From IMG/VR virus record IMGVR_UViG_3300017706_002418, positions 1 to 23,283 of that record: 23,283 bases of DNA, one strand, 5' to 3'. Shown piece after piece: positions 948-23,278 of this stretch (positions are counted from its first letter, which is position 1; each line of letters starts with the position of its first letter). The notes under the pieces are model-generated. The model searched no databases and was not told the DNA's origin. It saw only the letters and a program-made list of their open reading frames with translations. Both the position numbers and the translations under genes were made by a program. This DNA comes from a virus.

Positions 948-978
948 GTAATATACGAATCTTAATTTAGGGAGCAAA
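948..978 (-). promoter_or_regulatory. Candidate Bacteroidota-type promoter for the primase gene
   Basis: Reading the minus strand, TTTG (978-975) is followed by 19 nt and then TATATTAC (955-948), just before the primase ATG at 942. The Bacteroidota housekeeping consensus is TTTG, about 19-20 nt, then TAnnTTTG, so the -33 element is exact and the -7 element partial. The 10-mer TTCGTATATT (959-950) recurs in the same arrangement upstream of the DUF932 gene. The -33 element lies inside the 3' end of the GIY-YIG gene. Confidence 0.45.
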
Positions 979-6058: not shown

Positions 6059-6082
6059 TTATAAATATGTGGTTATAAATAT
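6059..6082 (-). promoter_or_regulatory. Tandem pair of late-promoter-like boxes
   Basis: Two copies of ATATTTATAA (minus strand) lie at 6068-6059 and 6082-6073, 14 nt apart, between the 485 aa and 219 aa genes. On the minus strand the adjoining octamers are TATAAACA and TATAACCA, one and two mismatches from the T4 late box TATAAATA. On the plus strand both contain an exact TATAAATA. Only 3 nt separate the proximal copy from the ATG at 6055. Confidence 0.5.
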
Positions 6083-6100
6083 TATTATTTTATTTTTCTA

Positions 6101-7558
6101 TTAACTATCAGCTAATATTCCTTTATCTTTTAATTCTAAAACTAAATCATCAATATTATCTTTTAATTCTTGAGTAGGAAACTCAGGAAGTATAACTCCT
6201 TTAAAAGGTGAACTCCCAGGACTTAGTTGATTTTTAGCAACATCTAATATTATATATACAGGATCATTCACATCTACTCTATGAAGAATAAAGTTATCTC
6301 TATTAACAGTATCAGGTATACGTTGATTTAATTTTAACCTTAATAATCCTTCAGGATCAGCACCTGGTTCGATTACCTCATATACAATATAATCTGTTTC
6401 CATATTATACTCAAATCTTATTCTGTCACCAACTTTTACTTTAAAGGGGACATTAATAGAAGAAAGATTAAAATCATTAGCACTTGCTAAATCTGTAACT
6501 GGATCTGAATTTTGGATGTTAGTATAATTCTCAGAAAGTTCTGCAGAAGCAGTTAAATATAAATTAGTAGAATCACTTCCAGTAGACCAGTAAGGAGGAA
6601 CAGCATCAGGAAATCCAGGTAGTGGACTTTGGGCAGAAACTTGTAGTCGAATAAAATCAATAAACAAATCATCAGTTCCACCATTAGGGAATCTTACTTG
6701 AACATCAAAAACTGGGTTACCCGCTAAAGCGTTTCCAAAAACAAAAAATTCAAATGGATCATTACCATTAGCAATATTTAATTCATCATCATCAGGAACT
6801 GTATAGCTTTTAGTTGCTACTATATTACTACCTCTTCTAATGCTAAAATCTACAGCAAAACTATCATCGGTATTATTATTTGAAATTTGTGCTAAAATTT
6901 TAATTTTAAAAAATTGAACATCTCCCAATCCACTACTAACTACAGAATATGTTCCATTTGTAGCATTATAAGCTGCTGCTAAGGGATCAGGTTCTATAGT
7001 AGGGGCACTATATCCAGTAATAGGTTGATAATCAACATAACTACTATCAGGATTAATATTTGTTTTAGTCATATTTCCTAACATACTAGGAGATGATTGA
7101 TTAAGACTACCATCAAAATTTAATGTATTAATATTAGCCCCCGCAGTAGACCCAGTTGCCGAATATAAAATTGGAACTTGTCTTCCTATGCCTGTTATTT
7201 TTTGTTTTCCAAAAATATTACCATTAGAAGTAGAAGGAGTACTATTTCTAAGGACAACATTTTTTCCAACTTCAAAATTTTGAATTAAATTATCAAGAGA
7301 AGCATATTCTGTTGAAGGTTTACTTAAATTACCCTTAGCATCTACTAAATAACTAATAAAGACTGCAGTTTGATCTATAATTTCAGGACCTGTTCCTCCT
7401 GCTCCTGTGTATACCGCAAAATATTCAGAGGTCCTTTCGGCAACAGGTAACCCACCTAAAGCTCCATTAATAGGACCCAAAAAATTATTTAATTGTTCCT
7501 GTTCTAAACTTGTTGCTTGGGGTGATGGGGTTTGTTGTGCTATGGCTTGTGTTGGCAT
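6101..7558 (-). CDS. Virion structural protein (unknown), likely baseplate or fibre associated
   Basis: 485 aa with no recognised domain. The N-terminus is Gln/Pro/Ser-rich and flexible (AIAQQTPSPQATSLEQEQ). The middle alternates short beta-type stretches with Asn/Asp/Gly loops. The C-terminal 110 residues look like a compact domain: VGDRIRFEYNMETDYIVYEV, then LKLNQRIPDTVN, then NFILHRVDVNDPVYIILDV, ending in an acidic helix (ELKDNIDDLVLELKDKGI). I believe similar C-termini occur in other marine phage tail proteins, but this is memory and not a search. It sits 6 nt after the upstream gene's stop and about 45 nt before the 219 aa gene, the gap that holds the paired late boxes. Confidence 0.6.
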   Translation of the reverse strand: MPTQAIAQQTPSPQATSLEQEQLNNFLGPINGALGGLPVAERTSEYFAVYTGAGGTGPEIIDQTAVFISYLVDAKGNLSKPSTEYASLDNLIQNFEVGKNVVLRNSTPSTSNGNIFGKQKITGIGRQVPILYSATGSTAGANINTLNFDGSLNQSSPSMLGNMTKTNINPDSSYVDYQPITGYSAPTIEPDPLAAAYNATNGTYSVVSSGLGDVQFFKIKILAQISNNNTDDSFAVDFSIRRGSNIVATKSYTVPDDDELNIANGNDPFEFFVFGNALAGNPVFDVQVRFPNGGTDDLFIDFIRLQVSAQSPLPGFPDAVPPYWSTGSDSTNLYLTASAELSENYTNIQNSDPVTDLASANDFNLSSINVPFKVKVGDRIRFEYNMETDYIVYEVIEPGADPEGLLRLKLNQRIPDTVNRDNFILHRVDVNDPVYIILDVAKNQLSPGSSPFKGVILPEFPTQELKDNIDDLVLELKDKGILADS

Positions 7559-7564
7559 GTTTTA

Positions 7565-8584
7565 TTAATTAAAATCTATTGAACTAACTTTACTTCCATT
7601 ATATCTCCCATTGGTCCACCCATGTTGGGAATAATTAGAGTCTTGAACTCCCGCTCTACGGGCTGAACCACTAATAATTAAATCAAAATTAATAGGGTCA
7701 AGTCCCTGGGCACTGGAGTAATCTATTTTTTGGAATACTGAAGAAAATTGAGAAAACTCCGCATTACCTAATATAGCATTGTAATCCGAGTACTCAAAAT
7801 TACCAATTTCAGGATTAATATTTAGTATTACTTCATTATTTGTACTATCTGCGGCAATAGATTGGTTAAAATTTATTTGTACTTGGGTTAAAGTAATAGC
7901 TCCGCTAAAAGCTATATACATACCTGCAAAGAAACATGGACCTCCTGATGTAGCATAAAATTCAGTTTGGGCTGATGCTAAACCGTTTGCACCAACAGGT
8001 ATAACATTTACAACTTGGATTCCTAGTTGATCGAATTGAGTATAATCAAATCCTTCTATAAAAGCATCTATAGATTGAGTAGGTACTAATAAAGAAAAAT
8101 AATTACCCCCAAATCCGCTAAAGCCACTTACCTGAATACTGGATGTTACAGATACTGGAATATTGGGAGCGTTTAAAGTGTATACATCTGTAGTATCATT
8201 ATAATAATTTTGGGGGTTAGCTCCTATAACATACATCCCCGAATCGTTATCATTATTCCAAACGGCTACATCAAAAGGGTTTAAGGTTTTACTTAAAGTA
8301 CCTCTAGCTAAATCTAAATTCCAATCTCTAATTTCATTAAGGGAAGATGTATTTTCATTAGCAACAACCCCCATTAAATAATGCCCCCCCTGGTCTTGTG
8401 TAGTTAAAATATTATATTGAACACTACCTATGTCGGGGTAATTGAGATTAAGACTATCAGCAATTGCTAATTGAGGACCATAATCCTCCCCATCCTTATC
8501 TAATTTATTAATTTTGATATACTTTACTCCTTTAGTAAAGTTTTGACCATAATTAGGATTATCTGGTGGTGGTGCTAGTGCCAT
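7565..8584 (-). CDS. Virion structural protein (unknown)
   Basis: 339 aa, beta-rich, no membrane segment or catalytic motif. The N-terminus NYGQNFTKGVKYIKINKLDKDG and the C-terminus SARRAGVQDSNYSQHGWTNG followed by RYNGSKVSS are the most family-like parts. The VQDSNY...W...RY.GSK pattern is one I associate with structural proteins of Bacteroidota and marine phages. The start lies 12 nt after the stop of the large wedge gene with an A-rich leader (AAAAAATAAACAAA). Co-transcription with that gene suggests it assembles on or near the baseplate. The exact role is not visible. Confidence 0.6.
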   Translation of the reverse strand: MALAPPPDNPNYGQNFTKGVKYIKINKLDKDGEDYGPQLAIADSLNLNYPDIGSVQYNILTTQDQGGHYLMGVVANENTSSLNEIRDWNLDLARGTLSKTLNPFDVAVWNNDNDSGMYVIGANPQNYYNDTTDVYTLNAPNIPVSVTSSIQVSGFSGFGGNYFSLLVPTQSIDAFIEGFDYTQFDQLGIQVVNVIPVGANGLASAQTEFYATSGGPCFFAGMYIAFSGAITLTQVQINFNQSIAADSTNNEVILNINPEIGNFEYSDYNAILGNAEFSQFSSVFQKIDYSSAQGLDPINFDLIISGSARRAGVQDSNYSQHGWTNGRYNGSKVSSIDFN

Positions 8585-8596
8585 TTTGTTTATTTT

Positions 8597-11500
8597 TTAT
8601 CCTCCGCTAAAGGCATTAGTTTGTGTTTGTATTTGTTCTTGAGGAGAAACTCCTTCTCCTGTGCTTAAGAAACTCCCAGTATCATACCATAAATATAATT
8701 CTCCTTGTTGGGGACCTTGGAAGGCACTTTGAAATGGAGGTAATGGTGAAGTACTACTACTATAGAAAAAAACATCGTAATTTATTTCTATTACGTTAGC
8801 TTTTTTACTTGTGTTTTCATCATTTAATTCCCCGGTAGTTGCAACAAATTCACTTCCACTAAACTCTCCATCATAAAATTCTTCTTGAGAGGATTGGGTC
8901 AATGCAAAGGGACCTTGTGGAGTATTTACATCATACACCCAACTTTGAGTAACAAACGGTGAAACTCTATTTACATGTCCCTCTAATTGTCCTTCAGGAG
9001 AAGTTCCTAATACATTTAAATCATTTAAAACTCCCCCTGCCCCACCTGAAATAAATCCAGATTCTATAGAAGCACTATAATCATGTTGAGATGTTTCAAC
9101 TTGAGCTGGTCGTTGTTTATTTCTTTCTAATAGGTGTTGTTTAATTACAACTCCTGAGGCTAATCCTGAACTCGCAGGTACAAAATCTTGTACCATTTTG
9201 AATAAAGAATTATCAAAATACTTAATAAGTCTTATATAATCTTTCCAATTGTAATTTTTATAATATTTGTCGAAATAATTATCTCTTAACTTATCTAAAT
9301 CAGGATATGAATATGATGATGAATTAAATTGTCTAGGATCACCTATATATTCACCTATATTAAAGTAACCAAAACTATTATTAATATTATCATTAATTTC
9401 GTTTTGAGGTGAAAATGCAACTTCAATATAATTTATATCCTTAGTGTAATTACTAGAACTTTGTGGATAATTTTGTTGGATACTCCTATAAGATGATAAA
9501 GTATTTCCAACTTCGGGGAGGACTTTAGGCTGAGTTCTTATTTTTTCAGAAATTCTATTTTTAATACCAACTGCAGGTTGATCATAATAGATAAATTCTG
9601 AGTTACTAATATATGTAACTGCTCCCCCTACAAATTGATAATTACTATTTGCTGAAAATGATTGGGTTATAGATGAACCTGTAATAGCAGGGTGAATCGA
9701 GGTATAATTGGTAGATAATGCGTTATTATCTGTATCGATATTCGCTCCTAATGAAGCTCTAAATGCTAGCTCATCTTTTGATGAATTAAATGAATTTCCT
9801 TCAATTGAAAGGGGATTCATTACTAAGTCATTAAATTGAGTATCGGTAGTTGCTTTGCTATATAATCTTAATTCCTGGAAGGCTATTTTACTACCTACTC
9901 CTTTTAAGGTCATTCCAGTTCCATAAGTTAATGCGGGGCCTACCGAAGAAGTATTAAATCCAATTTTGAAACCATCATTTCCATTATATATCTTAGTTCC
10001 TGTTCTTAATTTAGTTTTACCAACACCTACTGTCCACCATTCCCCATTGAAGAAAGAAGCTGTTACTTGATTTGATCCTATCCTGAATGCTCCATCGTAA
10101 ACACTTTGTGAAACTATAGATCCCGAATAACTAGCGCTAACCATTCCTCCTCCTGCATATTGAAGGTTTATATTTTCACTTCCAATAGTACCCGCTATTA
10201 AAACATTTCCATTAGGAGGGAGAGCACCACTTATGTATTTGAATCTAAAACTAATATCATTTAATCCCCCATCAAATGCGGAATTTAAAGCAGTAGCAGA
10301 TAAAGTTACATCTGTTCCTGTTAAACCATAATTAAATTTAGATTGATGGTAATCCCAATCATTAGAGTTAGTTTTATCTTTCCCCCCAAATTCAGATATT
10401 CTAAGAATTGTATCAGGGATACCAAAGCAATTTATTAATGCTCTTAATCCTTCAACCGTACCTTTTTTCTTTAGAAGATAAGGTAAGTTATGGTATAAAC
10501 GTTTATAAGTTCCTTTATTTACATTATCTAAAGGAATAGCTACATTAGAAGCCGAAACATAAGTTTCTATCACCTCAGAACCTGTAGGAGCTAATAAGCT
10601 TCCTGAGCCATTTATACCTAATAAAGAAGCATATAAATCATCAGATGAAAAGTTATTTTGGTATAATTTTAATCCCGCCCCCCTTAAGGCATCAGATACT
10701 AAATCTTTTGATATACCAAAATCTAATCTATTATCACCATTATATCTTTCAGTAATAGTATTAATATAAGAATAAACTATATCAAAATGCTGCCCTATCA
10801 TATTTAAAAATAGTTCATAACCTGAGTTATCCGAGTCATTTCTTAAATAGTCTGGGATAGTGTTTATTAAACTATCTTGATTTTCATTATCATATTGAGA
10901 TGCCGAAAATATTCTTCCCCCATATTCAGATGTAGCTTCATCTTTACTTCCTAACCAATTTAATACTTCTGTGCTTCCCGTAGATTGTAATAAATAAGGT
11001 TGATTAGTATTGGATTTAGGGTAGGATAAGGCTCCTGAGGTATAATAGAGATAGTTTTCATAACCGTCAAAATTTTTAATAACATCTGTTATTTGGGCTT
11101 CATAAGTTGCTCTACTTGAAGATATTTGTAAAGAGGAAGAAGTTGAACCCGTAATAGAATTAATACTATTTATACTATTATTATACCCTTCAATTTGTCC
11201 TACTTTATAATAAAAATTTAATAATCTTTCTTCAGCTGAACTATACTGGACAAAATTAGCAAACTCGGTATAATCTATATTAATATTTATACCTTTTTCG
11301 TTTAAAATATTTTCTAGTTCATTATAGGATGAACTTAATTGAGAAACTTCTAACAGAGAATTGTAATCTCTCAATTCAGTAGAATTATTAATCTGATCAG
11401 AGATTTGATAATTAAAGTTTGGACCTTTAAGATATACAATATCTTCTTCTACAGTAATAGGTTTAGGAGGTAAATTTAAACTATACCCTACAGTTTCTGC

Positions 11501-12121
11501 TGTTTCTAATACTACTTGTAATTGAGAATTAACTAAAATAGATGGTGGAAGGGGTTGATATAATTTTATTAATACAGTACTAGGAACTGAGGTACTATCT
11601 ATTGTAATATTATTAGCTATATAATAAGACCCATCAACATTAATATAAAAATCTTTAAAAGCATTACCTTCTAAAGTAGATTTAAATTTTTCTACTAATA
11701 AATTAATTTCCTCATCAGAAATATTATTAACAGATAATCTTAATTCAGTTCTAGTAGGGGATATTTCTTGAATAAAATATTTATATTCATCTGATTCTAG
11801 AGCAGTTCTATAAAAATTATAGTATACATTATATACTCCTATATTATATCCACTATTTTGTAAATCCCTAATAGGAAATACCACAACTGAAGAAATTTGG
11901 TCTTCATTCAGAGTATTTTCATAATTTCTAATTGTAAAATTAGAAACTTTTCCACTTTGTAATAATTCCCCTGTAACAGTTTCAACAGAAAATATAACTT
12001 GATCCGTTACAGGATTAAACTCCGAAGTAGAATCCACCACAGGAATAAGTGCTTCTTGAGAAGAACTATATTCTTGTTGGATAGCTCCTTCAGGATTATT
12101 CAGTGGGGTTAATGTTATCAT
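8597..12121 (-). CDS. Large baseplate wedge-type protein with P2 gpI-like core and LamG-like domain (gp7 candidate)
   Basis: 1174 aa, the largest gene here. Residues 1-240 look like beta-sandwich repeats. Residues 410-580 contain SLINTIPDYLRNDSDNSGYE, a helical segment, and YKRLYHNLPYLLKKKGTVEG with LRALINCFGIPDTILRISEF (539-578). The KGT-x-x-x-x-LR-x-L motif with its following GI turn resembles the P2 tail protein I family, whose T4 counterpart lies in gp7. Residues 620-775 resemble a LamG/concanavalin-like domain: ISFRFKYISG at its start, WWTVGVG (695-701), and IAFQELRLYSKATTDTQFND at its end. The C-terminal 350 residues are Asn/Ser/Tyr-rich. In the gene order gp25, gp6, two other genes, then this one, a gp7-like wedge protein would be expected. 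It overlaps the upstream gene by 26 nt. The gp7 equivalence is inference. Confidence 0.72.
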   Translation of the reverse strand: MITLTPLNNPEGAIQQEYSSSQEALIPVVDSTSEFNPVTDQVIFSVETVTGELLQSGKVSNFTIRNYENTLNEDQISSVVVFPIRDLQNSGYNIGVYNVYYNFYRTALESDEYKYFIQEISPTRTELRLSVNNISDEEINLLVEKFKSTLEGNAFKDFYINVDGSYYIANNITIDSTSVPSTVLIKLYQPLPPSILVNSQLQVVLETAETVGYSLNLPPKPITVEEDIVYLKGPNFNYQISDQINNSTELRDYNSLLEVSQLSSSYNELENILNEKGININIDYTEFANFVQYSSAEERLLNFYYKVGQIEGYNNSINSINSITGSTSSSLQISSSRATYEAQITDVIKNFDGYENYLYYTSGALSYPKSNTNQPYLLQSTGSTEVLNWLGSKDEATSEYGGRIFSASQYDNENQDSLINTIPDYLRNDSDNSGYELFLNMIGQHFDIVYSYINTITERYNGDNRLDFGISKDLVSDALRGAGLKLYQNNFSSDDLYASLLGINGSGSLLAPTGSEVIETYVSASNVAIPLDNVNKGTYKRLYHNLPYLLKKKGTVEGLRALINCFGIPDTILRISEFGGKDKTNSNDWDYHQSKFNYGLTGTDVTLSATALNSAFDGGLNDISFRFKYISGALPPNGNVLIAGTIGSENINLQYAGGGMVSASYSGSIVSQSVYDGAFRIGSNQVTASFFNGEWWTVGVGKTKLRTGTKIYNGNDGFKIGFNTSSVGPALTYGTGMTLKGVGSKIAFQELRLYSKATTDTQFNDLVMNPLSIEGNSFNSSKDELAFRASLGANIDTDNNALSTNYTSIHPAITGSSITQSFSANSNYQFVGGAVTYISNSEFIYYDQPAVGIKNRISEKIRTQPKVLPEVGNTLSSYRSIQQNYPQSSSNYTKDINYIEVAFSPQNEINDNINNSFGYFNIGEYIGDPRQFNSSSYSYPDLDKLRDNYFDKYYKNYNWKDYIRLIKYFDNSLFKMVQDFVPASSGLASGVVIKQHLLERNKQRPAQVETSQHDYSASIESGFISGGAGGVLNDLNVLGTSPEGQLEGHVNRVSPFVTQSWVYDVNTPQGPFALTQSSQEEFYDGEFSGSEFVATTGELNDENTSKKANVIEINYDVFFYSSSTSPLPPFQSAFQGPQQGELYLWYDTGSFLSTGEGVSPQEQIQTQTNAFSGG

Positions 12122-12485
12122 CTTCTGTTAAATCAATAATGTTTTGTTGTAAAGTAAGATTCTCTTGTCTTAAAAAAGTTATCTCATCTAAAAGAGCTTG
12201 GATTTCATTTGATATACCTTGTGAACCCACGTATTCAGTACTTTGTTTTATTAAAAACTCGTGAGAATTTACACTACCTTCTTTTGGAATTTCATAAAAT
12301 AAACTTTCGTATATTTGAAAAAATTCATCTACAGTTGTTACTTCTTCTACTGGGGTAGGAAGCGAAGGGGGAAGTAATTCATTAAATTGAGTATTAATGG
12401 TATTAAGGTAAGCTTCTTTATTATATAATTTCTTCCTTAAGTTCAAAGCACTCCCAGAATCATATGTGTTTAAATTATTATCCAT
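12096..12485 (-). CDS. Small coiled-coil protein, probable baseplate assembly or structural factor
   Basis: 129 aa, acidic. Residues 1-40 are polar with an RKKLYNKEAYLNTINTQF segment. A proline-rich stretch (LLPPSLPTPVEEV, 38-50) follows. Residues 90-120 (ISNEIQALLDEITFLRQENL onward) have heptad spacing typical of a short coiled coil. It overlaps the 376 aa gene by 8 nt (ATGGATAA) and the large wedge gene by 26 nt, so the three are translated as a coupled set. It may be a chaperone or a small subunit for the large wedge protein. No family is recognised. Confidence 0.65.
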   Translation of the reverse strand: MDNNLNTYDSGSALNLRKKLYNKEAYLNTINTQFNELLPPSLPTPVEEVTTVDEFFQIYESLFYEIPKEGSVNSHEFLIKQSTEYVGSQGISNEIQALLDEITFLRQENLTLQQNIIDLTEDDNINPTE

Positions 12486-13608
12486 TTATAACTTTAAAAT
12501 AATAATTATCGTCTAATATTAAGGTTTCTCCACTAATATTTACTTTAAGTAAAATTTGATAATACCTTTCAGGTTCTAACCCATTCATGTATAAAGTAAA
12601 ATAGCTACTTTCACTATCTGCACTAATTTTAGTATAAGTAGTATCAAAATCAATTACAAATTCATTAGTATCTAAATCTTTTACAGCATAATATGAAGCT
12701 GTAGGAAGATAATGACATTTAGTATACGATGAACCTGTTTCAAAATCCCTTTGGGGGAATTGAGGTCTAGAATTAATTCTAATTTTTTTAACACTATCCC
12801 TTCTAAATGTTCCATTATTATTATCCAACGTAGCGACCATGCGAGCGGTATCAATTTCCGTATTAGACGATGATCCAGTGTCATATATAAAATCATCCCA
12901 CTTAAATTCGAGCTGTGGCGGGTAGATAGTGTGGGTGTCTATAGAAAAGTATTTAACAGTAGTAACATAATCTCTATTGGCGATAAATTCATCTGAGTCA
13001 GATTGTTTAATTAAAAATCCATCATTAGTGAATCCTCCTAAGCTTTTAGAAGAACTATACCAAGTTCTAATAGTATTAGTAACATCAACATTTAAATCTT
13101 TTTCACTAGCGTAATCTAATATTTGGGAATGGGTTACATTTAATCCTAAACTTGACCCTGTATACCAAGTTCCCCCACCCGTATTTCCTTCGGTATAAGA
13201 AGCGGTAACACGTGGTTGGAATGATGTAGGCCATTCACCTGATCCCGATGTAAGTCTAAATTTCCAAGATACCCCATTAGTAGTAATAGGATTATTTGAG
13301 TATCTCCCGGTTCCCATATTCCAAGAACCTGAAACTGGGTAAATTTCTAAAGTAGTTTCAGCGTTAATCCCAGTAACATTTGCTATGTAGTTTTTAAGAT
13401 TAACTTGGAAGTTTTTAGTACCAATTTTATTATCTATTACGTCTCCAATTTCTGTTTGAGCAAATTTAATTACATACCTACTTACTTGGGGAAGTAAAGA
13501 ATTATAAAAAGTAGAAGCTTCTATAATTTCATCTAACCCCGTATTTAGAGCAGGAAACTCAGAATACATAGTTGAATCTTTTTCGGGAAATAAGTTATAT
13601 ACTGCCAT
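12478..13608 (-). CDS. DNRLRE/CBM96-like structural protein
   Basis: 376 aa. The N-terminus FPEKDSTMYSEFPALNTGLD followed by QVSRYVIKF (about 42-50) fits the DNRLRE/CBM96 pattern: a D-x-x-x-Y start, an N-x-G turn, and a strand ending in 'sR.likF'. The closing part of that domain type is also visible: LNVDVTNTIRTWYSSSKSLG followed by NDGFLIKQSDSDEF. After it comes FSIDTHTIYPPQLEFKWDDF. The last 120 residues look like one or two Ig/fibronectin-like beta domains ending in LDDNYYFKV. In T4 the gp8 wedge gene lies in this vicinity with a similar length (334 aa), but I see no sequence evidence that this is gp8. It starts 9 nt after the gp6 stop. The domain call is from pattern recognition only. Confidence 0.6.
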   Translation of the reverse strand: MAVYNLFPEKDSTMYSEFPALNTGLDEIIEASTFYNSLLPQVSRYVIKFAQTEIGDVIDNKIGTKNFQVNLKNYIANVTGINAETTLEIYPVSGSWNMGTGRYSNNPITTNGVSWKFRLTSGSGEWPTSFQPRVTASYTEGNTGGGTWYTGSSLGLNVTHSQILDYASEKDLNVDVTNTIRTWYSSSKSLGGFTNDGFLIKQSDSDEFIANRDYVTTVKYFSIDTHTIYPPQLEFKWDDFIYDTGSSSNTEIDTARMVATLDNNNGTFRRDSVKKIRINSRPQFPQRDFETGSSYTKCHYLPTASYYAVKDLDTNEFVIDFDTTYTKISADSESSYFTLYMNGLEPERYYQILLKVNISGETLILDDNYYFKVING

Positions 13609-13616
13609 GGTTTATA

Positions 13617-15545
13617 TTATAATGGTACTACTCTACCTTTTATGTCTGTGTTAGGAAATTTAACTTCAAAAACTGAGGGATCCTGAGAAGGATAAACTAC
13701 ATTATTTTGAGTTGCTCCTTTAATGTCATAAGCATATTGAGAATAACCTGAACTTTCACCTACTTTATTAACTATTTCAATACTTTTTACATTTTGTACT
13801 CCTTTTAAATCTTCTGAGTATCCTAAAAGAGCAAATAACTCACTAAGTAATAGTGGTTGGTTAATTTGCATATTTTTATTATCAAAATAAGTTTGTAACT
13901 TAAGAATACATTGGGTAAGTACTTCGTTACTATTAAAATTAGGCAATACTACAATTTCAAAATTAACACCTATATTAATAATAAAAGCATCTTTAATCCT
14001 AATAGAATCATTTATCATTCTATATTGGGAAAGATAAGTAGATAAATTTTGCTTCAATGTAGAAGTAGCAGTTGTAAAATTAGTATTATTATCATAAGCT
14101 AAAACACATAAATCTAAAGTAGACGGCTCCTCCCCAGGGAGGAGACTATCATATTTTTGAGACTCAATATAAGCCTTAGCTAAGGACCCATATTGAGAAG
14201 GCATACTTAACGCCCTTACTAAATAGTCATCTTGTGTTACACTTCTTAATTGGGAGGCATAATTAGCTAATGAATTTTTTCGTATATCTTGAACAGAATC
14301 ACCATCTCCACCTCCAGTAGCGGCATCAGGGTTATTTGCGGCTAAGGAACTAAAAGATTCCTGAGCTAGAGTAGCATCTAAATTATTTGAAGTTGTGAGG
14401 AGCACATTGCCTGCTACTGTTATATCTGTTAATGTGTTAGCAGGAACATTAGATGCAACTCCCCCTCCAGTTAAATATCTTACAGTTAAAACGGTGTTAG
14501 AAGGGGCTACACCATATGTTTTAGTAAACATAAAATTAGAAGGTGAAAATGCCGTCTTAAGTTTATCCTGAGTAGATGGTAATCCTATTCCTACATTATC
14601 AGGATTAGGAACGATTTGTTCATCAAAATCTTCAGCAGTGCCCGCACCAAATTGAAGTTGTAAAGTGGCACTGTTATCATCAACATTATTGCTACTTACA
14701 ATTCTAGTAGCAAATCTTTTAGAAACTTTTTTCAATCTTAATAAATCTCCTACCTCTGAAGAGTCAGCTTGAGTATTAGGATCAGTAACAAAAGGATTAG
14801 TATTTTTAATAGTTTCAAATACTGTTTCTTGAGCTAAGTAATCTACTTCGGTCCAATCATTTCCATCACTATCAACAATATCTAAAATTTTTAAAGGTTG
14901 TTGTGTACTAATATTATGAGTAAAAAATCTTTCAGGTTCCCCTACTGTTACTGTAGTTGTATTGATAGTAGCGGAAATAGCTTTAGTGGTTTTTTTCAAT
15001 AAAAAAGAAACTGGTTGGTCTCCCGAGATTTCATATACACTTATTGTTGTAGGGTCTAATGAGCTAGATTCACTAAAATCAACTTTGTTTTGGGTTAAAA
15101 AGGTGGGCCCTTCTCCTCCACGTATAGGAGTATTTTCAGATATGGCTAAAGCATATTTAAAATCAGGTACATTTTCATCTGCATCCGCATCATATATAGC
15201 GGGTACAGTTTGAAATAATTCAATTTGGGTCGTTGCAGCTGTACTTACAGAAGGTTTATACCCCATCATGTAAGCTAAATCGTATAAGTTATTTAACTGT
15301 TTAGAATATTGAATAAAATTTTCTTGTATTTGATTATCTGTGTAGAATGAAAGAACATCACCTACATATGAAGCCATCTCAATAAACATAGTTCCTGGTG
15401 AGGAGGGGCTAAAGTCATTGACAGTATTAGGAAAATAAGTTTTAGCAAACCCTATAAGATTTGATCTAAAATCAGAAAAATTCTTATTAATATATTTAAT
15501 ATTTCTATTAATTCCGTTATTACTATTTATTAAATCGTATGGCAT
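13617..15545 (-). CDS. gp6: Baseplate wedge protein gp6 (baseplate J-like)
   Basis: 642 aa, close to T4 gp6 (660 aa). gp6 dimers form the ring that clamps the wedges of the contractile-tail baseplate. The N-terminus shows the family pattern: INRNIKYINKNFSDFRSNLI, then SPSSPGTMFIEMASYVGDVL (46-65) and LYDLAYMMGYKPS (87-99). The C-terminal half carries the baseplate-J signature (NSLANYASQLRSVTQDDYLV, 424-443, followed by RALSMPSQYGSLAKAYI). It shares one base with the upstream gp25 stop (TAATG). The gp25-gp6 adjacency matches T4-like phages in general and strengthens both calls. Confidence 0.9.
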   Translation of the reverse strand: MPYDLINSNNGINRNIKYINKNFSDFRSNLIGFAKTYFPNTVNDFSPSSPGTMFIEMASYVGDVLSFYTDNQIQENFIQYSKQLNNLYDLAYMMGYKPSVSTAATTQIELFQTVPAIYDADADENVPDFKYALAISENTPIRGGEGPTFLTQNKVDFSESSSLDPTTISVYEISGDQPVSFLLKKTTKAISATINTTTVTVGEPERFFTHNISTQQPLKILDIVDSDGNDWTEVDYLAQETVFETIKNTNPFVTDPNTQADSSEVGDLLRLKKVSKRFATRIVSSNNVDDNSATLQLQFGAGTAEDFDEQIVPNPDNVGIGLPSTQDKLKTAFSPSNFMFTKTYGVAPSNTVLTVRYLTGGGVASNVPANTLTDITVAGNVLLTTSNNLDATLAQESFSSLAANNPDAATGGGDGDSVQDIRKNSLANYASQLRSVTQDDYLVRALSMPSQYGSLAKAYIESQKYDSLLPGEEPSTLDLCVLAYDNNTNFTTATSTLKQNLSTYLSQYRMINDSIRIKDAFIINIGVNFEIVVLPNFNSNEVLTQCILKLQTYFDNKNMQINQPLLLSELFALLGYSEDLKGVQNVKSIEIVNKVGESSGYSQYAYDIKGATQNNVVYPSQDPSVFEVKFPNTDIKGRVVPL

Positions 15546-15970
15546 TATAATGGTATGTTAAGTTCTATAAATTGGTCTACACTTGAAAATACTGAGTAGA
15601 ATATTTGAGCTTTGATAGTATGTCCATCTAAGCTTTCTGTAACTATAACTTCTTTTAATTTAACCATAGGGAATACTAAGGTTATATCATCTTCAATACT
15701 TTTTTTTAAAGTTTCAAGTACTGAAGGGCCATTTTGCTCAAAAAGGTATGTAGATATATCTCCCCCAAAATTAGGATCAAATACTCTTTCCCCCTTATTA
15801 GTAAGAAACCAATTGATCATGTTAAATTTTACTTGCTCTGCACTAGTATAGTTTATCCTAAAAACAGAATCAGAACCTGAAGTTGCAAGGGATTTAAAAG
15901 GAAGGGCTAACCCCAGCCCAACTGATGGAGTTTGATCAAATGCTGGTATGTTTCCTACTTCTATTGCCAT
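15545..15970 (-). CDS. gp25: Baseplate wedge protein gp25 (sheath initiator, GPW/gp25 family)
   Basis: 141 aa, typical for gp25 (T4: 132 aa). Its role is to connect the baseplate wedge to the first ring of the contractile sheath. The diagnostic core is NMINWFLTNKGERVFDPNFG (50-69), including the conserved G-E-R and P-x-F-G positions of the gp25-like fold, followed by ISTYLFEQNGPSVLETLKKS (72-91). The N-terminal extension (1-30) is short. It sits between a 106 aa unknown and gp6, with TAATG junctions on both sides, so the three are tightly coupled. Confidence 0.92.
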   Translation of the reverse strand: MAIEVGNIPAFDQTPSVGLGLALPFKSLATSGSDSVFRINYTSAEQVKFNMINWFLTNKGERVFDPNFGGDISTYLFEQNGPSVLETLKKSIEDDITLVFPMVKLKEVIVTESLDGHTIKAQIFYSVFSSVDQFIELNIPL

Positions 15971-16290
15971 TATTTAGTGGGGTTTAAAAGACCCATAATT
16001 TGGTCCATACCTACATTACCTTGAGGTAAATCTCCCCCGGGCATTATTCCTTGGGGATTAAATTGGTTAACATCTTGGCTAGTAAATTGGGATGCGGTTT
16101 CCCCTAAAATATTGGCATAAGCTGCTCTTTTATCTTCACTAATTGGTTTATTTTCAATAGGTGATGAAGGTGCAGAATTGGAAACTTGTCTAGGGGCTCT
16201 AACTGCTTCTAGTAAGATTTCTTTTAATTCTTCTTGAATTACTTCTCTTACAGATTCTTTAATTAAAGTTTTAAGTACTTGCGATTTCAT
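15970..16290 (-). CDS. Small conserved unknown with basic-acidic N-terminal helix
   Basis: 106 aa. Residues 1-32 form a strongly amphipathic helix (LKTLIKESVREVIQEELKEI). Residues 33-55 are Pro/Ser-rich and probably disordered. The end is Gly/Pro/Gln-rich with NQFNPQGIMPGGDLPQGN and a final helix (MDQIMGLLNPTK). Such proteins often act as short adaptors or scaffolds, but no family is recognised. It lies between the 282 aa gene and gp25, behind a late-box-like element, and may head the gp25-gp6 unit. Confidence 0.6.
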   Translation of the reverse strand: MKSQVLKTLIKESVREVIQEELKEILLEAVRAPRQVSNSAPSSPIENKPISEDKRAAYANILGETASQFTSQDVNQFNPQGIMPGGDLPQGNVGMDQIMGLLNPTK

Positions 16291-16293
16291 TGA

Positions 16294-16303
16294 TTATAAA
16301 TAT
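16294..16303 (-). promoter_or_regulatory. Late-promoter-like box
   Basis: ATATTTATAA on the minus strand lies in the 18-nt gap between the 282 aa gene and the 106 aa gene. It is followed by TCA and then the ATG. The minus-strand octamer is TATAATCA; the plus strand has an exact TATAAATA at 16295-16302. Confidence 0.45.
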
Positions 16304-16308
16304 TATAT

Positions 16309-17157
16309 TTAATAAGCTTTTAAATTATCTCTGTCAATAATGAATTTTAACTCATCTATTAATACTTTGTCTGATGGGGTAAAGGAAAGTTCGGTTTGAA
16401 TTAAAGTAATCCCATCATCATTTTTCCCTAAGGCTCTTTTTCTATTTATAGTAGGGGAAAATGGAACTTCTTCAATTTCAAAAACAAATCCTTGGTAAGT
16501 AGATAGATTCACACTCTCTTCGGCTTGTCTTTGTACAGTGGAAATTTCTACTAATGCCTCATCAGGTTGAGGTAAAATTACATTACGGCATCTATTGATA
16601 TTATCATCTAATGATTTTAGTTTTATAATAAATTCATTGATATAAAATGATATTAATGCTAACGGGATTGAAATACTATTTATAGCAGTTCTAACGGGAG
16701 GAATTTTAGGATTCCCAAATTTGTCAAAAGTTTTACTAGTAATAAGAGTATCTAAATCATTTAAAGAAGCGGGAATTGCCCCTGGAAGACCGAATGGGAT
16801 TAATTTTGATATTATAGATACTGCTATTCTACCTGTTTTTAGAGCAGTTATTAATTTTACTAAAGTGTTTATACCTAATCTAGCTAAATCAACTGTAAAT
16901 GTTACTCCCTTAAGAATTTTAGCTATACTATTAGCTTGATCTAATATGTTATTTCTAATAGAAATTACTTTAGATAATTCCTCTCGGGTAGGACAATCAC
17001 CTTCAACTTTGATTAATTGTTTTTCTAAAGAAGGTATTAATCTATCCGAAAATAACATGGCTTGATTTGTTACTAGTACAATTAAAGCCTCAATTCCTTT
17101 TTTTTTAAATTCTCCTGGAGTAGAGCTATTGATTATATTTTCTTCGATTTTAGCCAT
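16309..17157 (-). CDS. Conserved tail-cluster protein of unknown function
   Basis: 282 aa. The N-terminal 200 residues are helical, with hydrophobic stretches around 75-125 and 160-180 (INSISIPLALISFYINEFII), too interspersed with charge to call firm membrane helices. The C-terminal part has a clear pattern: YQGFVFEIEEVPF, then NRKRALGKNDDGITLIQTEL and LIDELKFIIDRDNLKAY. I believe this ending recurs next to gp5-like hub genes in related phages, but I cannot name a family. It shares one base with the gp5-like stop (TAATG). Position between hub and wedge genes suggests a hub, tube or tail-length role. A gp27-like function is possible but not supported by sequence. Confidence 0.6.
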   Translation of the reverse strand: MAKIEENIINSSTPGEFKKKGIEALIVLVTNQAMLFSDRLIPSLEKQLIKVEGDCPTREELSKVISIRNNILDQANSIAKILKGVTFTVDLARLGINTLVKLITALKTGRIAVSIISKLIPFGLPGAIPASLNDLDTLITSKTFDKFGNPKIPPVRTAINSISIPLALISFYINEFIIKLKSLDDNINRCRNVILPQPDEALVEISTVQRQAEESVNLSTYQGFVFEIEEVPFSPTINRKRALGKNDDGITLIQTELSFTPSDKVLIDELKFIIDRDNLKAY

Positions 17158-18344
17158 TATATAGTTTTACTTACTTTAGACTTAGTTTTAGTTTCTAAAT
17201 CATTTTTTAATGAAACTAAAGTACTAATTAATGGGGTAGTTGAAGCAATCATGTAAGCCATGTAGGGAGAAGGATTATTATTAAATTGGCTCATCCATTT
17301 CCTTAACTCGCCTACTAATTCAGATAATAATTGTATAGTGATATCACCTTTTAATAAGGGTTCAGTTGCTTCTTTATCTCCCAATAATATATTAGGAGAA
17401 TTTATTGTAAATGAATTTTTACTATCTATGTTAACTGTATCCTGAGAATTTAAATTTACGGATTTAGCCGAACTGATCAAAACACTATCCAGATTAGAAT
17501 TTAATACTATTCTTCCTGAGTTTATTAGAACCTGATTTGACGCATAATTGGGTATAAATTCAGGTGCAAGTGATGATGAATATGAATCATAATTAAAAAT
17601 ATTAGGTTCTAATTCTATTTGCTGGTCGGAAGTTAAGTATATAGAAGCTTTATCTAAGTTTATATCTTCTTCAATTGTATTCCATCCTTCATCAGTGTCT
17701 TCACCCTGCCCATTTCTTATTTTAGTAATAGGTGAAATGCCTTCACTACTACCAAATCTTAGTGATTGACCAAATCTTCCTTCTATTATATGATCTCCTT
17801 CAAAAGGTTTTAAAGGATTTATATTAGATTGTTCTATAAAAGTATCCCCTAACTTTAAATCATTTGTTTCATCAACAGCCTTATTAGGACTTCCTCCTAA
17901 TATTTGAGAAATATTTTTACTTAATGAAAAGGGTGGATTAGAGGAACCGGGAATACCATTATGGTGTGGGTTACCCCAAATATTTATAGGGGGAAAATAG
18001 TAAGATATTTTAGAATTACCTGCTTCTTCTAATTTATTATCTGGGAGGTCAATGACTGCTACAATTTCATTAAGTAAAGGGTAATGTTTTATATTGGGAA
18101 ATAGAGGATATGCTACTCTTATAGCATCATCATTTTCACTAGGATTAGTTACATCTTCTATTAAAACCATACCTATAGAAGACCATTCTCCATAAGTACT
18201 AAAATAGGGATGATTTTCATCTAAAATAATATCCTTTACCCTAAAACTATTAATTTCTTTAGGAACAGCTAAGTCTACAGTATCACTAACTAAATTTCTA
18301 GCATAATTAGCAAACCCCCCTATACCATAGTTTAACTTAGGCAT
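17157..18344 (-). CDS. gp5: gp5-like baseplate hub/spike protein lacking a lysozyme domain
   Basis: 395 aa. Residues 35-125 look like the OB-fold that seats gp5 in the hub (FRVKDIILDENHPYF; GMVLIEDVTNPSENDDAIRV; LLNEIVAVIDLP). Residues 185-200 hold IIEGRFGQSLRFGSS, a segment I recall from gp5-like proteins. From 232 the chain becomes regularly alternating (SIYLTSDQQIELEP), and residues 269-322 form short beta repeats (NQVLINSGRIVLNSNLDSVL, SSAKSVNLNSQDTVNIDSKN) consistent with the trimeric beta-helical needle. T4 gp5 (575 aa) has a lysozyme domain between OB-fold and needle. Here that interval (126-185) is too short and has no lysozyme catalytic motif. TAATG overlaps occur on both sides. Confidence 0.78.
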   Translation of the reverse strand: MPKLNYGIGGFANYARNLVSDTVDLAVPKEINSFRVKDIILDENHPYFSTYGEWSSIGMVLIEDVTNPSENDDAIRVAYPLFPNIKHYPLLNEIVAVIDLPDNKLEEAGNSKISYYFPPINIWGNPHHNGIPGSSNPPFSLSKNISQILGGSPNKAVDETNDLKLGDTFIEQSNINPLKPFEGDHIIEGRFGQSLRFGSSEGISPITKIRNGQGEDTDEGWNTIEEDINLDKASIYLTSDQQIELEPNIFNYDSYSSSLAPEFIPNYASNQVLINSGRIVLNSNLDSVLISSAKSVNLNSQDTVNIDSKNSFTINSPNILLGDKEATEPLLKGDITIQLLSELVGELRKWMSQFNNNPSPYMAYMIASTTPLISTLVSLKNDLETKTKSKVSKTI

Positions 18345-18685
18345 TATTTCTTATCGTCTTTGAACTTTTTTACTTCATTTAGCAATTGTTGTTTTTCGTC
18401 CTCTGTCATTCCAAAATTACCATCATCTACCCCATCACTTTGAATTGCTCTTTGAGCAATTGTAGCCATTTTAATAAGTTGCTCATCATTTTTAACTGAG
18501 ATTTCTAAATACTCCTTAAGGAGAGGAACGACTAAAGTAGCATCACCAATATCTTGTATCAAAGGTTTTAATTCTGATATAAGAGTTGAAATTTGTTCTT
18601 CTTTTTTCTTTTGGTTATTGTAAATTTCTTCTAAAATATTAGAGAATTTTTTTTTACCAAATATATTTTTATCTAACTGCCCCAT
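18344..18685 (-). CDS. Small helical protein upstream of the gp5-like gene
   Basis: 113 aa, charged and mostly helical: KFSNILEEIYNNQKKKEEQI is followed by ISELKPLIQDIGDATLVV, and the C-terminus is lysine-rich (LLNEVKKFKDDKK). No motif is recognised. It shares one base with the gp5-like start (TAATG), so the two are translationally coupled, which suggests a partner or chaperone for hub assembly. An exact late box lies 8 nt upstream of its ATG, making it the first gene of the baseplate unit. Confidence 0.62.
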   Translation of the reverse strand: MGQLDKNIFGKKKFSNILEEIYNNQKKKEEQISTLISELKPLIQDIGDATLVVPLLKEYLEISVKNDEQLIKMATIAQRAIQSDGVDDGNFGMTEDEKQQLLNEVKKFKDDKK

Positions 18686-18693
18686 ATTTATTT

Positions 18694-18706
18694 TATTTAT
18701 AAATAT
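18694..18706 (-). promoter_or_regulatory. Late-promoter box overlapping the gp55 stop
   Basis: The minus strand reads ATATTTATAAATA and contains an exact T4-type late box, TATAAATA, at 18701-18694. The plus strand has the same octamer at 18698-18705 because the site is partly palindromic. The gp55 stop (TAA, 18699-18697) is embedded in it. The ATG of the 113 aa gene is 8 nt downstream, so initiation about 6-7 nt beyond the box would give an almost leaderless message. Confidence 0.6.
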
Positions 18707-19434
18707 GAAGTATCTTTAAAATTAGTATATCCATTTTCTTTATAAAAGAGATAATGGGCTTTATAAATGTCTCCTAATTTACCGGCGACTTTAGTGATCT
18801 GGGGAGTTTTAGCATCTACCATTTCTCTTATATAAATGTATAGTGCTTTTTTATTAAATACATCCAATTGGTCTCTTGAAGCAAAAATAGATAAAATAGC
18901 ATCTGCTATTTGAGCATCCCTTAATTTAGGAAATAAGTCCGTAAGGATTGAATTGCAATATTTGATATACTCATCCATAAAAATAGAATCCTTGTCCTTT
19001 TCCATAGGATCATAATCCAAATCATATGAATATTTTAGATTATGATGTAATTCATCAACGGGGGCTTTATCTACTCGTTTTTTATAGTTTTTGGTATTTT
19101 GTATAATTAAATACCGTTTTGCAATCGTACCAAAATATGAAAATGCTTTTGTCCCACGTGTAGGATCAAATAAATGAATTTTATCTAATAAGAATGTAAT
19201 TACTTCATGTTGAAGGTGTTCAATTTCATTTACCTCTGTATAATAAAATTTAAAGGTATGGATTATATTCTCCGTAAGTTTAAAAAATCCGTAATGGATT
19301 CCCGTACGGTAGATTTCACTTCTTTCCTCGGGATCAGAAGAGCTATTGTATCTAACAATAGCGTCTTCCGTATCTTGAGTAAAATATAAGTTTTTTGTTT
19401 TCTTTTTTCTTTTTCTGGGGGGTAATGTGCTCAT
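18697..19434 (-). CDS. gp55: Late-transcription sigma factor, T4 gp55-like
   Basis: 245 aa, longer than T4 gp55 (185 aa). gp55 binds host core RNA polymerase and recognises the TATAAATA late box; in T4 it works with co-activator gp33 and sliding clamp gp45, neither of which is seen here. The basic N-terminus (PRKRKKKTKNLYF) is followed by TQDTEDAIVRYN (19-30), a pattern typical of marine T4-like gp55. The sigma region-2-like core is LLDKIHLFDPTRGTKAFSYF (82-101) with GTIAKRYLIIQNTKNYKKRV (102-121), whose FDP..G.kafSYF..iakr pattern is diagnostic. Residues 205-232 (VDAKTPQITKVAGKLGDIYK) could act in DNA binding. It is chained by ATGA to the membrane-protein gene upstream. Confidence 0.88.
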   Translation of the reverse strand: MSTLPPRKRKKKTKNLYFTQDTEDAIVRYNSSSDPEERSEIYRTGIHYGFFKLTENIIHTFKFYYTEVNEIEHLQHEVITFLLDKIHLFDPTRGTKAFSYFGTIAKRYLIIQNTKNYKKRVDKAPVDELHHNLKYSYDLDYDPMEKDKDSIFMDEYIKYCNSILTDLFPKLRDAQIADAILSIFASRDQLDVFNKKALYIYIREMVDAKTPQITKVAGKLGDIYKAHYLFYKENGYTNFKDTSYL

Positions 19435-19712
19435 AATTTATCTATCCTAAATTTAGATAGAATTCTCTGAAGATCTGTAATTTGTTGAAAGATAAAACCA
19501 ATTTCGTCATCGCTTTTAAAAATACCACGCTCATCAATTTTTTTGAGCTTTTCATCAGAGATTTCTATAATTCGACTAAATTGATCTAAGTAAGTAATAT
19601 ATCCGGCAAGAATATCTTCTTGCTTTTCATTCTTACGTAAGAGGTTTATGGTTGTAAATCCTAAGATTATAACCAATACCCCTAATACACTGATGACTAT
19701 TGTTTCTATCAT
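19431..19712 (-). CDS. Small single-pass membrane protein
   Basis: 93 aa. Residues 3-24 (ETIVISVLGVLVIILGFTTI) form one strong hydrophobic helix followed by LLRKNEKQ, which suggests N-terminus out and the rest cytoplasmic. The remainder is a charged helix with coiled-coil character (ISDEKLKKIDERGIFKSDDE, then FQQITDLQRILSKFRIDKL). It is coupled by 4-nt ATGA overlaps to the HD-domain gene upstream and gp55 downstream. Function unknown; it may tether something to the inner membrane during infection. No lysis-gene features such as a holin hairpin or a spanin lipobox are present. Confidence 0.68.
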   Translation of the reverse strand: MIETIVISVLGVLVIILGFTTINLLRKNEKQEDILAGYITYLDQFSRIIEISDEKLKKIDERGIFKSDDEIGFIFQQITDLQRILSKFRIDKL

Positions 19713-20482
19713 AATTTATCAAATAAATCTTTAAGACCTTTACTTTCAAGTTGAGAAAGTGCTTTGTCTTTGGTTGATTTTTTAGATTCTGTGGTCAATA
19801 TAAAATTCTCCTTCTGGGGGGGCACGGAATTTTTAAATTTAGGTAACCATTCCCTTTCAAACTCAATACGAGCCGCCATCATATCCGCCTGGTGTAAAAT
19901 GAATGGTAAAGAAGTACGTGGTTTTTGTTCGGGCATATATGCTTTAAGATATTTTTCATTAGCAGCATCATATAACCCATCATGAGTTTGAATTGCAAGC
20001 ATTTCATTAAATGTGTATTTAACACTATGAGATTGAAGCATAAATAAACCTCTATCAGGAACAGAAGCAAATGGGACTTGTTTATTAAACATATAATCCT
20101 CACCTAATTTTTCTTTTCTCCATTTATCGGTTTGGGGGATATAAGATTCATTTTCTTCATCTCCCATTTTTCCAAGATCATGGTTGATTGCCGAAAATAC
20201 TAATTCTTCTTTAGTAAACGTAGTCATATCAGCACCCTCTTCTTCCCAAAGATCATATTGTTTAAGAGAACACCTAACTACTCTGTTAACATGTTCAACA
20301 TAACCCCCTGGGAAAGCATTATGGTATTCTTTTTTATGAGCAGCGGGCATCATCATAATACGTTCTTTATAGGTATCATAGAACGCTATAAGCATTTCTC
20401 TTCGGGGACGGGAAATGTGAATTTCAATATTATCGCAGAATTCATCCCAATTCTCCTGGATTTGTTCAGCTGTTAGCTTCAT
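19709..20482 (-). CDS. HD-domain metal-dependent phosphohydrolase
   Basis: 257 aa. HD-superfamily ligands are visible: H64 in GGYVEHVNRV, the H-D doublet in INHDLGKMGD (H101-D102), a second HD pair in QTHDGL (H167-D168), and D200 in HQADMMAARIEFE. Spacing H...HD...H...D matches a divalent-metal phosphohydrolase. HD proteins act on nucleotides, cyclic nucleotides or nucleic-acid ends; the substrate cannot be read from the sequence. Residues 220-245 are a polar linker before a C-terminal helix (LESKGLKDLFDKL). The start overlaps the previous stop by ATGA, and its own stop overlaps the membrane-protein start the same way. Nucleotide-pool or signalling-nucleotide turnover is plausible inference. 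Confidence 0.82.
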   Translation of the reverse strand: MKLTAEQIQENWDEFCDNIEIHISRPRREMLIAFYDTYKERIMMMPAAHKKEYHNAFPGGYVEHVNRVVRCSLKQYDLWEEEGADMTTFTKEELVFSAINHDLGKMGDEENESYIPQTDKWRKEKLGEDYMFNKQVPFASVPDRGLFMLQSHSVKYTFNEMLAIQTHDGLYDAANEKYLKAYMPEQKPRTSLPFILHQADMMAARIEFEREWLPKFKNSVPPQKENFILTTESKKSTKDKALSQLESKGLKDLFDKL

Positions 20483-20673
20483 ACTTTATTCTGTTCATTA
20501 GGTGACATAGGCTCTCGCTCAATTGCGGCCTTAATCTCTTCAACTAAATCTTCACAATGTTCTTTAGCGGATTCAACTTCCTGTCGATTTCCTCTACCAT
20601 TGTGATATTCAACATGTTTTAATTTTGCTTGGAGATTTTCAAGTTTTCTCTGAATGTGTTGTCTATATTGCAT
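20479..20673 (-). CDS. Small coiled-coil protein preceding the HD gene
   Basis: 64 aa, almost entirely helical and charged (YRQHIQRKLENLQAKLKHVE; ESAKEHCEDLVEEIKAAIER), ending in EPMSPNEQNKV. Residues 4-24 and 34-54 look like two antiparallel helices around an HNGRGNR turn. I have the impression that closely similar small proteins occur in other marine T4-like phages, without a known function. It is joined to the HD gene by ATGA. An exact late box lies 9 nt upstream of the ATG. Confidence 0.7.
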   Translation of the reverse strand: MQYRQHIQRKLENLQAKLKHVEYHNGRGNRQEVESAKEHCEDLVEEIKAAIEREPMSPNEQNKV

Positions 20674-20682
20674 AGTTTTTAT

Positions 20683-20690
20683 TATTTATA
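20683..20690 (-). promoter_or_regulatory. T4-type late-promoter box
   Basis: The minus strand has an exact TATAAATA in the 23-nt gap between the 149 aa gene and the 64 aa gene, preceded by CGT and followed by nine nucleotides and the ATG. It would drive the 64 aa, HD, membrane and gp55 genes, which would let gp55 promote its own late expression. Confidence 0.55.
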
Positions 20691-20696
20691 ACGAAG

Positions 20697-21146
20697 TTAC
20701 GATGAAAAATTTAAAAAATCAAGGTATTTTTTAAGAACTGCACATTTTTCGTATTCTTCTAAATTTTCGAAATGGTCTATACTTTTATTTAAAGCGGATT
20801 CAAAATCTATTTTAGAATTTCTAGCTTCTCTAAATAAAGCATTAATGTGTTCTTTATCTTGTAAGTTTATATCTTTAATATAATCATATGCTCTTTCATA
20901 AAGCATAAATTCACCTACTCTTTTAATATCTTTTATATCTAATGTTGGGTCTGCTTTATCAAACAAACCTATTACTTGGGTAGTATAATTTAAATAGTTT
21001 AAAATTAACTTTCTAAACATTCCTAATTTATATGAAGGACTATCTTCATCAACTACAGATACCCTTTTAAGGGGTGTAAAGGAAGACAGACTCCCTTCAT
21101 CCCTAGATGATGAATTAAATGACCCAAATATTTTATTAATGTCCAA
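20697..21146 (-). CDS. Conserved unknown, TTG start, UVR-like C-terminal motif
   Basis: 149 aa if started at TTG (21146), which overlaps the previous gene's end by 11 nt. There is no ATG before residue 43 (GMFRKL), and an in-frame TAG stops the frame 12 nt upstream of the TTG. The TTG start keeps an N-terminus INKIFGSFNSSSRDEGSLSS. The body is helical (RKLILNYLNYTTQVIGLFDK, IKRVGEFMLYERAYDYIKDI). The end, FENLEEYEKCAVLKKYLDFL, resembles the UVR motif of UvrB/UvrC-type proteins, a short helical hairpin used for protein contacts. The resemblance is weak and function unknown. Confidence 0.62.
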   Translation of the reverse strand: MDINKIFGSFNSSSRDEGSLSSFTPLKRVSVVDEDSPSYKLGMFRKLILNYLNYTTQVIGLFDKADPTLDIKDIKRVGEFMLYERAYDYIKDINLQDKEHINALFREARNSKIDFESALNKSIDHFENLEEYEKCAVLKKYLDFLNFSS

Positions 21147-21345
21147 AGTGTCGTTCTAGAGTTTCAAGCTGATCTTCTGCATCAGCTAATTTTTGAATGG
21201 CTTTTTGACCCTCTTCTAGAAAATGTCCTGATGTATGTTCACCAATGCCAGCCGGTGAATGTATGAGGGTTTCTAGTGTAAGCAATGCTTCCTCTCGGTC
21301 CGCTTCTGCTTGTTTTCTTAGAGCCTTTATTAATCTGTGTTCCAT
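21136..21345 (-). CDS. Small helical protein
   Basis: 69 aa with two helices (EHRLIKALRKQAEADREEAL, EGQKAIQKLADAEDQLETLE) joined by a HSPAGIGEHTSGHF loop that contains several histidines. There is no second methionine and a stop lies in frame 18 nt upstream, so the ATG at 21345 is required. It is preceded within 2 nt by a late-box-like element and overlaps the next gene by 11 nt. Function unknown. Confidence 0.65.
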   Translation of the reverse strand: MEHRLIKALRKQAEADREEALLTLETLIHSPAGIGEHTSGHFLEEGQKAIQKLADAEDQLETLERHFGH

Positions 21346-21347
21346 GA

Positions 21348-21357
21348 TTATAAATAT
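21348..21357 (-). promoter_or_regulatory. Late-promoter-like box abutting a start codon
   Basis: ATATTTATAA on the minus strand is followed by TC and then the ATG of the 69 aa gene. The plus strand carries an exact TATAAATA at 21349-21356. The minus-strand octamer is TATAATCA, whose last A is the A of the ATG. Confidence 0.45.
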
Positions 21358-21402
21358 AGTTTATTTCTAAATTTTTATATGTTGTTATATATGTCCAGTA
21401 AT

Positions 21403-23246: not shown

Positions 23247-23278
23247 TAAATATACGAACAGTCTCCTGTGACTCCAAA
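23247..23278 (-). promoter_or_regulatory. Candidate Bacteroidota-type promoter for the DUF932 gene
   Basis: On the minus strand TTTG (23278-23275), 20 nt, then TATATTTA (23254-23247). This is one mismatch from the TAnnTTTG -7 consensus with the expected spacing. TTCGTATATT (23258-23249) is shared exactly with the element before the primase. The remaining 55 nt to the ATG are an untranslated leader with a GC-rich patch (GGTTGCGGCAGCAGCC) followed by A/T-rich sequence. Confidence 0.5.

Follow-up and report, generated by a model that had tools for sequence, protein, structure and literature searches.

A probable variant of the T4-type late promoter, read on the coding strand, in a lineage of T4-like phages

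The ten-base sequence ATATTTATAA, which recurs at gene boundaries of a virus, is very probably (we put the probability at roughly 0.83) the late promoter of a T4-like phage, read on the minus strand, with a phage-encoded gp55-like sigma factor as its putative reader. The in silico support for this reading comes from the enrichment of the box, its orientation, its preference for virion genes, an invariant core, the lack of a -35 element and a bimodal spacing to the start codon. The stretch of DNA analysed here, referred to as the window in the following, is the entire virus record of 23,283 bases. Its GC content varies between 26 and 40% per kilobase, and all 27 genes that we accepted as real lie on the minus strand, among them a DNA primase gene, genes of the baseplate wedge and further genes of the virion region. 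Scans of the window with Rfam and for tRNAs gave no matches. A protein with a long Gly-Ser-Ser-Gly-Thr-Ser-Gly repeat is encoded in the tail-fibre region (1427-3325, minus strand). Relatives are numerous, with at least 600 matches in each of two relative searches, and the nearest cultured one by its sigma gene, among the matches listed, is Flavobacterium phage Immuto (46% identity), which has the same gene order around this gene. We regard the window phage as T4-like and infer that its host group is probably the Bacteroidota.

The five copies of ATATTTATAA in the window, whose positions had been given correctly in a preliminary description of the sequence, are listed in Table 1. Dinucleotide shuffles contained 1.01 copies on average, in agreement with the earlier estimate of about one copy by chance, and five copies were reached in none of 100. 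Zones of 45 nt before gene starts cover 5.2% of the window, which puts the chance of finding all five copies there at about 4e-7. The copies had also been described as lying at or between genes: all five are indeed located upstream of starts, but the one at 18697-18706 additionally lies inside the end of the sigma gene, where its minus strand forms the last codons and the stop (TAT TTA TAA).

Table 1. Probable late boxes, the genes behind them and the proposed reader in the window. Gap, distance from the end of TATTTATA to the ATG; the transcripts are predictions.
Feature	Position	Strand	Gap (nt)	Context	Predicted transcript
Late box ATATTTATAA	6059..6068	-	4	gene 5396-6055	leaderless mRNA, start ~6055
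Second, tandem late box	6073..6082	-	18	gene 5396-6055	leader of ~13-14 nt
Gene in virion region	5396..6055	-		downstream of tandem late boxes	
Late box, baseplate unit	16294..16303	-	4	gene 15970-16290	leaderless mRNA, start ~16290
Baseplate unit, first gene	15970..16290	-		downstream of 16294-16303 box	
Late box	18697..18706	-	12	gene 18344-18685	
113-aa gene, function unassigned	18344..18685	-		downstream of 18697-18706 box	
gp55-like late sigma, proposed box reader	18697..19434	-		245 aa, region 2 only	
Late box	21348..21357	-	3	gene 21136-21345	leaderless mRNA
69-aa gene, PHROG_1811 (function not known)	21136..21345	-		downstream of 21348-21357 box	

The orthologue of gene 5396-6055 in Immuto (90688-91347) is likewise preceded by the box, and the box at 16294-16303 stands before a baseplate unit that runs from gene 16290 through gp25-type and gp6-type genes and onward. 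Two further details concern overlaps between the box and coding sequence. The codons for the C-terminal Tyr-Leu of the window's sigma factor lie within the promoter of the gene behind it (18697-18706, minus strand), and a tiny reading frame (MKNYWTYNTTIGDLEINYIYK and similar; ~21346-21412, minus strand; L011-L013), which is common to relatives, overlaps with its 3' end the late box of the gene 21345 orthologues.

The preliminary description had suggested a search for enrichment of the motif upstream of starts in relatives, and this search was positive. Across 80 gp55-anchored contigs and the window, ATATTTATAA occurs 114 times within the 40 nt before starts, compared with 0.58 expected from gene bodies and no occurrence of its reverse complement; these sites are largely orthologous junctions and hence not independent. 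Allowing for at most one mismatch, the box precedes 76 of the 79 orthologues of gene 18685, 47 of the 48 orthologues of gene 16290 (nearly all 2-4 nt from TATTTATAA) and all six orthologues of gene 21345, while almost none of the internal operon genes in relatives carries it. More independent evidence, from many different genes, is provided by three long genomes, in which TATTTATA was found before gene starts 19 times (G003; 0.44 expected), 22 times (G002; 0.46 expected) and 23 times (Immuto; 0.23 expected). The same script recovered the T4 box TATAAATA before T4 starts as a positive control (8 versus 0.16 expected); the late region of Syn1 yielded too few TATAAATA sites to serve as a second one. 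Neither box showed a promoter-like pattern within 40 kb around the gp55-like genes of Microcystis phage Mel-JY01 and the uncultured LR756508, whose gp55-like proteins are 38-43% identical; consequently, these two phages do not place the change in the box that is described below. When viral sequences were scanned with the Mel-JY01 protein, no relatives came to light. Near gene starts of the Immuto-clade loci (L091-L170), we also observed a strong enrichment of a further element, ATGCTCCC followed by C or A (41 versus 0.04 expected).

As all genes of the window lie on the minus strand, the relevant reading of the box is TATTTATA. The preliminary description had instead equated it with the T4 box and proposed a divergent or bidirectional form, in which the working element would be TATAAATA on the plus strand or a degenerate TATAAnnA on the minus strand. 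An exact plus-strand TATAAATA is present at each site, as had been stated, and T4, KVP40 and S-PM2 use this very box (PMC2988020, PMC2984593), but the plus-strand copies are merely the reverse complement of coding-strand TATTTATA and point antisense, away from every gene, with no plus-strand genes to serve. On the coding strand, all five copies of TATTTATA fall in the 45 nt that precede a start, but of the nine copies of TATAAATA seven are inside genes. The bases conserved among relatives in the direction of the genes are TATTTAT, while those following TATAA on the minus strand vary, and the reverse complement of the ten-base sequence is absent upstream of starts in relatives. On grounds of orientation and placement, we rejected plus-strand TATAAATA as the working element. 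A bidirectional palindrome was likewise rejected, since the palindromic form TATTTATAAATA occurs in just 30 of 381 late sites of the family and at a single site in the window (18694-18705, at the 18697-18706 box). Together with the lack of a virion-gene preference of TATAAATA in Immuto, these results leave us with very little credence in the T4-box reading. An additional TATAAATA reported at 20690-20683 does exist (20683-20690, minus strand). It heads the unit that runs into the sigma gene, 9 nt in front of gene 20479-20673. We rejected it as a late promoter and place it outside the late set, as it is not conserved upstream of orthologues; CGTAACTTC, located upstream of it, is common to close relatives, unlike the octamer itself.

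The core of the coding-strand box, TATTTAT, does not vary among the 126 sequences from the two most conserved junctions; an A stands before it in 124 and after it in 111 of them. In the Immuto clade, the base before TATTTATA is either C or A, with C at about half of the sites. The box also marks particular genes. Among Immuto genes preceded by a gap of at least 15 nt, an exact box stands upstream of 15 of 33 genes in virion blocks, as we defined them from the annotation, compared with 7 of 72 others (p = 7e-5), so that the preference is not exclusive. In G003, the units behind the box encode sheath, tube, tape measure, virion, head-completion and baseplate proteins. The proposal of a late promoter in the preliminary description thereby becomes very likely, given the enrichment upstream of starts across relatives and the preference for virion genes.

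A second promoter class is found before other genes in Immuto and G003, with the form TTG-N~18-TTCGTATATTTAGG (L087-L088, L223-L228). In G003, it reads GTTCGTATATTTAGGTATAAT...AAAGGTT-ATG and precedes mostly small genes of one region as well as a dksA-like gene; none of the G003 genes listed carries both this element and the late box. We refer to this class as early for its resemblance to host promoters, not for its timing: the primary sigma factor of the Bacteroidota recognizes TAnnTTTG with TTTG at -33 (PMC7366714, PMC9723704). In the window, TTCGTATATT is found at 23249-23258 and 950-959 (minus strand), before a DUF932 gene (23192) and the primase gene (942). An upstream TTG accompanies 14 of 17 and 60 of 60 early sites, compared with 28 of 170 and 26 of 154 late sites; unlike the early class (TTG...TATATTTAGG), the late box has no -35 element.

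These two classes also bear on the question whether any phage sigma factor is required. TATATTTA, which covers part of the late sites, resembles the flavobacterial TAnnTTTG box (PMC9723704) and could be a variant of it, read directly by the host sigma factor, all the more as the early class of these phages looks host-like. The late boxes, however, have neither an upstream TTG nor a G after TTT, TATATTTA is not kept at the roughly half of Immuto-clade sites with C before TATTTATA, and late and early boxes mark different genes. We therefore consider a host-sigma promoter unlikely.

The distance between box and start codon is bimodal. Across 284 dereplicated sites from 82 families, the box ends 3-5 nt before the ATG at 116 sites, 6-8 nt at 13 and 9-22 nt at 134, corresponding to 26, 6 and 78 distinct family-spacing pairs, respectively. 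The start codons appear to be real, as the N-termini are conserved. In flavobacteria, transcription starts 5 nt after the box (-12 to -5; PMC9723704), and in T4 geometry it starts 6 nt after it. With a start 4-6 nt after the box, transcripts of the close mode would begin approximately at the A of the AUG; since the exact T4 step would place the start 1-3 nt inside the ATG at spacings of 3-4 nt, a slightly shorter step must be assumed. On this basis, the close mode is predicted to give rise to leaderless late mRNAs and the 9-22 nt mode to mRNAs with short leaders. Such a bias would be unusual, given that just 5.5% of the mRNAs in F. psychrophilum are leaderless (PMC9723704).

The many copies 3-5 nt before the ATG are also what one might expect if the AT-rich box acted on the mRNA, as a translation-initiation element in Bacteroidota, which make no use of Shine-Dalgarno sequences. 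Sequences resembling the latter are scarce in the window, and translation signals of the host group do differ from them (PMC9723704). Yet among the orthologues of a single gene, gene 18685, the same box lies anywhere from 3 to 21 nt from the ATG, a variation that a translation signal would not tolerate, and neither its absence from internal operon genes nor its preference for virion genes fits such a role. This alternative appears very unlikely to us, and we return to the late promoter and its potential reader.

The gp55-like sigma factor that the preliminary description had placed in the window is indeed encoded there, although the relationship is a distant one. The window protein alone found no match in PHROGs and Pfam, hhalign gave a weak result against the single T4 gp55 sequence, and no PDB sequence was retrieved by profile searches; with single-protein searches failing, only a family-level comparison revealed the relationship. 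Among the 53 family members, 33 match Pfam Sigma70_r2 (best 5.7e-5, none of the 53 passing Pfam's cut-off) and 19 match PHROG_234 'late sigma transcription factor' (best 8.5e-4), while a profile-profile comparison with the T4 gp55 family yielded an E-value of 2.9e-4 at 40% probability. The predicted structure (pLDDT 80, pTM 0.44) retrieved mostly sigma factors as top Foldseek matches, none of them significant. When the genomes of four relatives were searched in all six frames, region-2 matches were obtained only in G003 and G002, all of them inside the gp55-like gene, and no convincing match to region 4 was found. By these searches, the gp55-like protein is the only detectable candidate for a phage sigma factor, and one with region 2 only would suit a promoter that has no -35 element. 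In the T4 structure, gp55 accommodates the flipped bases A-12, A-9 and A-8 in pockets made up of Y97, N13/H95 and T99 (PMC7892883). Our profile alignment, with a register uncertain by 1-2 residues, pairs Y97 with an invariant Tyr and has N13, H95 and T99 replaced. It is suggestive only to tie these replacements to the altered bases of the box, as the gp55 of one cyanophage also replaces H95 although cyanophages keep AAATA. The clamp profile PF02916 detected the T4 clamp but no counterpart in these phages; cyanophage Syn1, which is expected to encode gp45 (PMC2984593), gave no match either.

Known late promoters of the T4 family offer the closest comparison. Like the T4 promoter and its gp55 (PMC2988020, PMC7892883), the system described here combines a single AT-only -10-type box of 8 bp before virion genes, with no -35 element, with a region-2 sigma factor encoded in the phage genome. 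It departs from the T4 consensus TATAAATA, however: in an ungapped alignment (-13 to -6), AA is changed to TT at -10/-9, the gp55-like protein is only very remotely related and shows altered pocket residues when the profiles are aligned, and the box often lies 3-5 nt from the ATG, compared with 14-28 nt in T4. T4, KVP40, 44RR and S-PM2 have late boxes that closely resemble each other, while Aeh1 differs at -13/-12 (PMC2988020, PMC2984593). The marine T4-like cyanophages also use a short box before virion genes (NATAAATA in S-PM2; PMC2984593), but they keep AAATA where the family of the window phage has TTTAT(A). With Aeh1 (a/gC at -13/-12; PMC2988020), a case of late-box divergence in the T4 family is already known, albeit at positions other than -10/-9. 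The Bacteroidota primary-sigma promoter (TTTG -33, TAnnTTTG -7; PMC7366714, PMC9723704) is similar to the early class and has TATATTTA in common with some late sites, but differs from the late box in its G after TTT and its upstream TTG. Our literature search, which covered mostly papers available outside subscriptions, found no report of a TATTTATA late box. On the in silico evidence, TATTTATA is best read as a T4-type late promoter in a new form, which would work in the manner of the T4 box but lies outside its strict consensus.

According to this interpretation, the box, whose core is (A)TATTTATa, would act on the coding (minus) strand as a -10-type element that needs no -35 partner. The gp55-like sigma factor, whose region 2 would read the -10 element, may place the host RNA polymerase on the box late in infection and thereby switch on the transcription units of the virion genes, and with the box ending 3-5 nt from the ATG in one mode and 9-22 nt in the other, late mRNAs would be leaderless or have short leaders. 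More tentatively, a large T4-like lineage infecting Bacteroidota may have re-coded its late promoter and gp55 together, by the AA to TT change at -10/-9 and the changed pockets, with leaderless mRNAs making up a substantial share of late units, far above the ~5% in a flavobacterium.

For a common and little annotated group of phages, these findings provide a late-gene signal that is sharply defined. They suggest that positions -10/-9 of the T4 late box, which include a base flipped into a pocket by gp55, are able to evolve jointly with the protein that reads them. Finally, they lead to a concrete prediction, namely that leaderless late mRNAs would occur in hosts whose translation does not depend on Shine-Dalgarno sequences.
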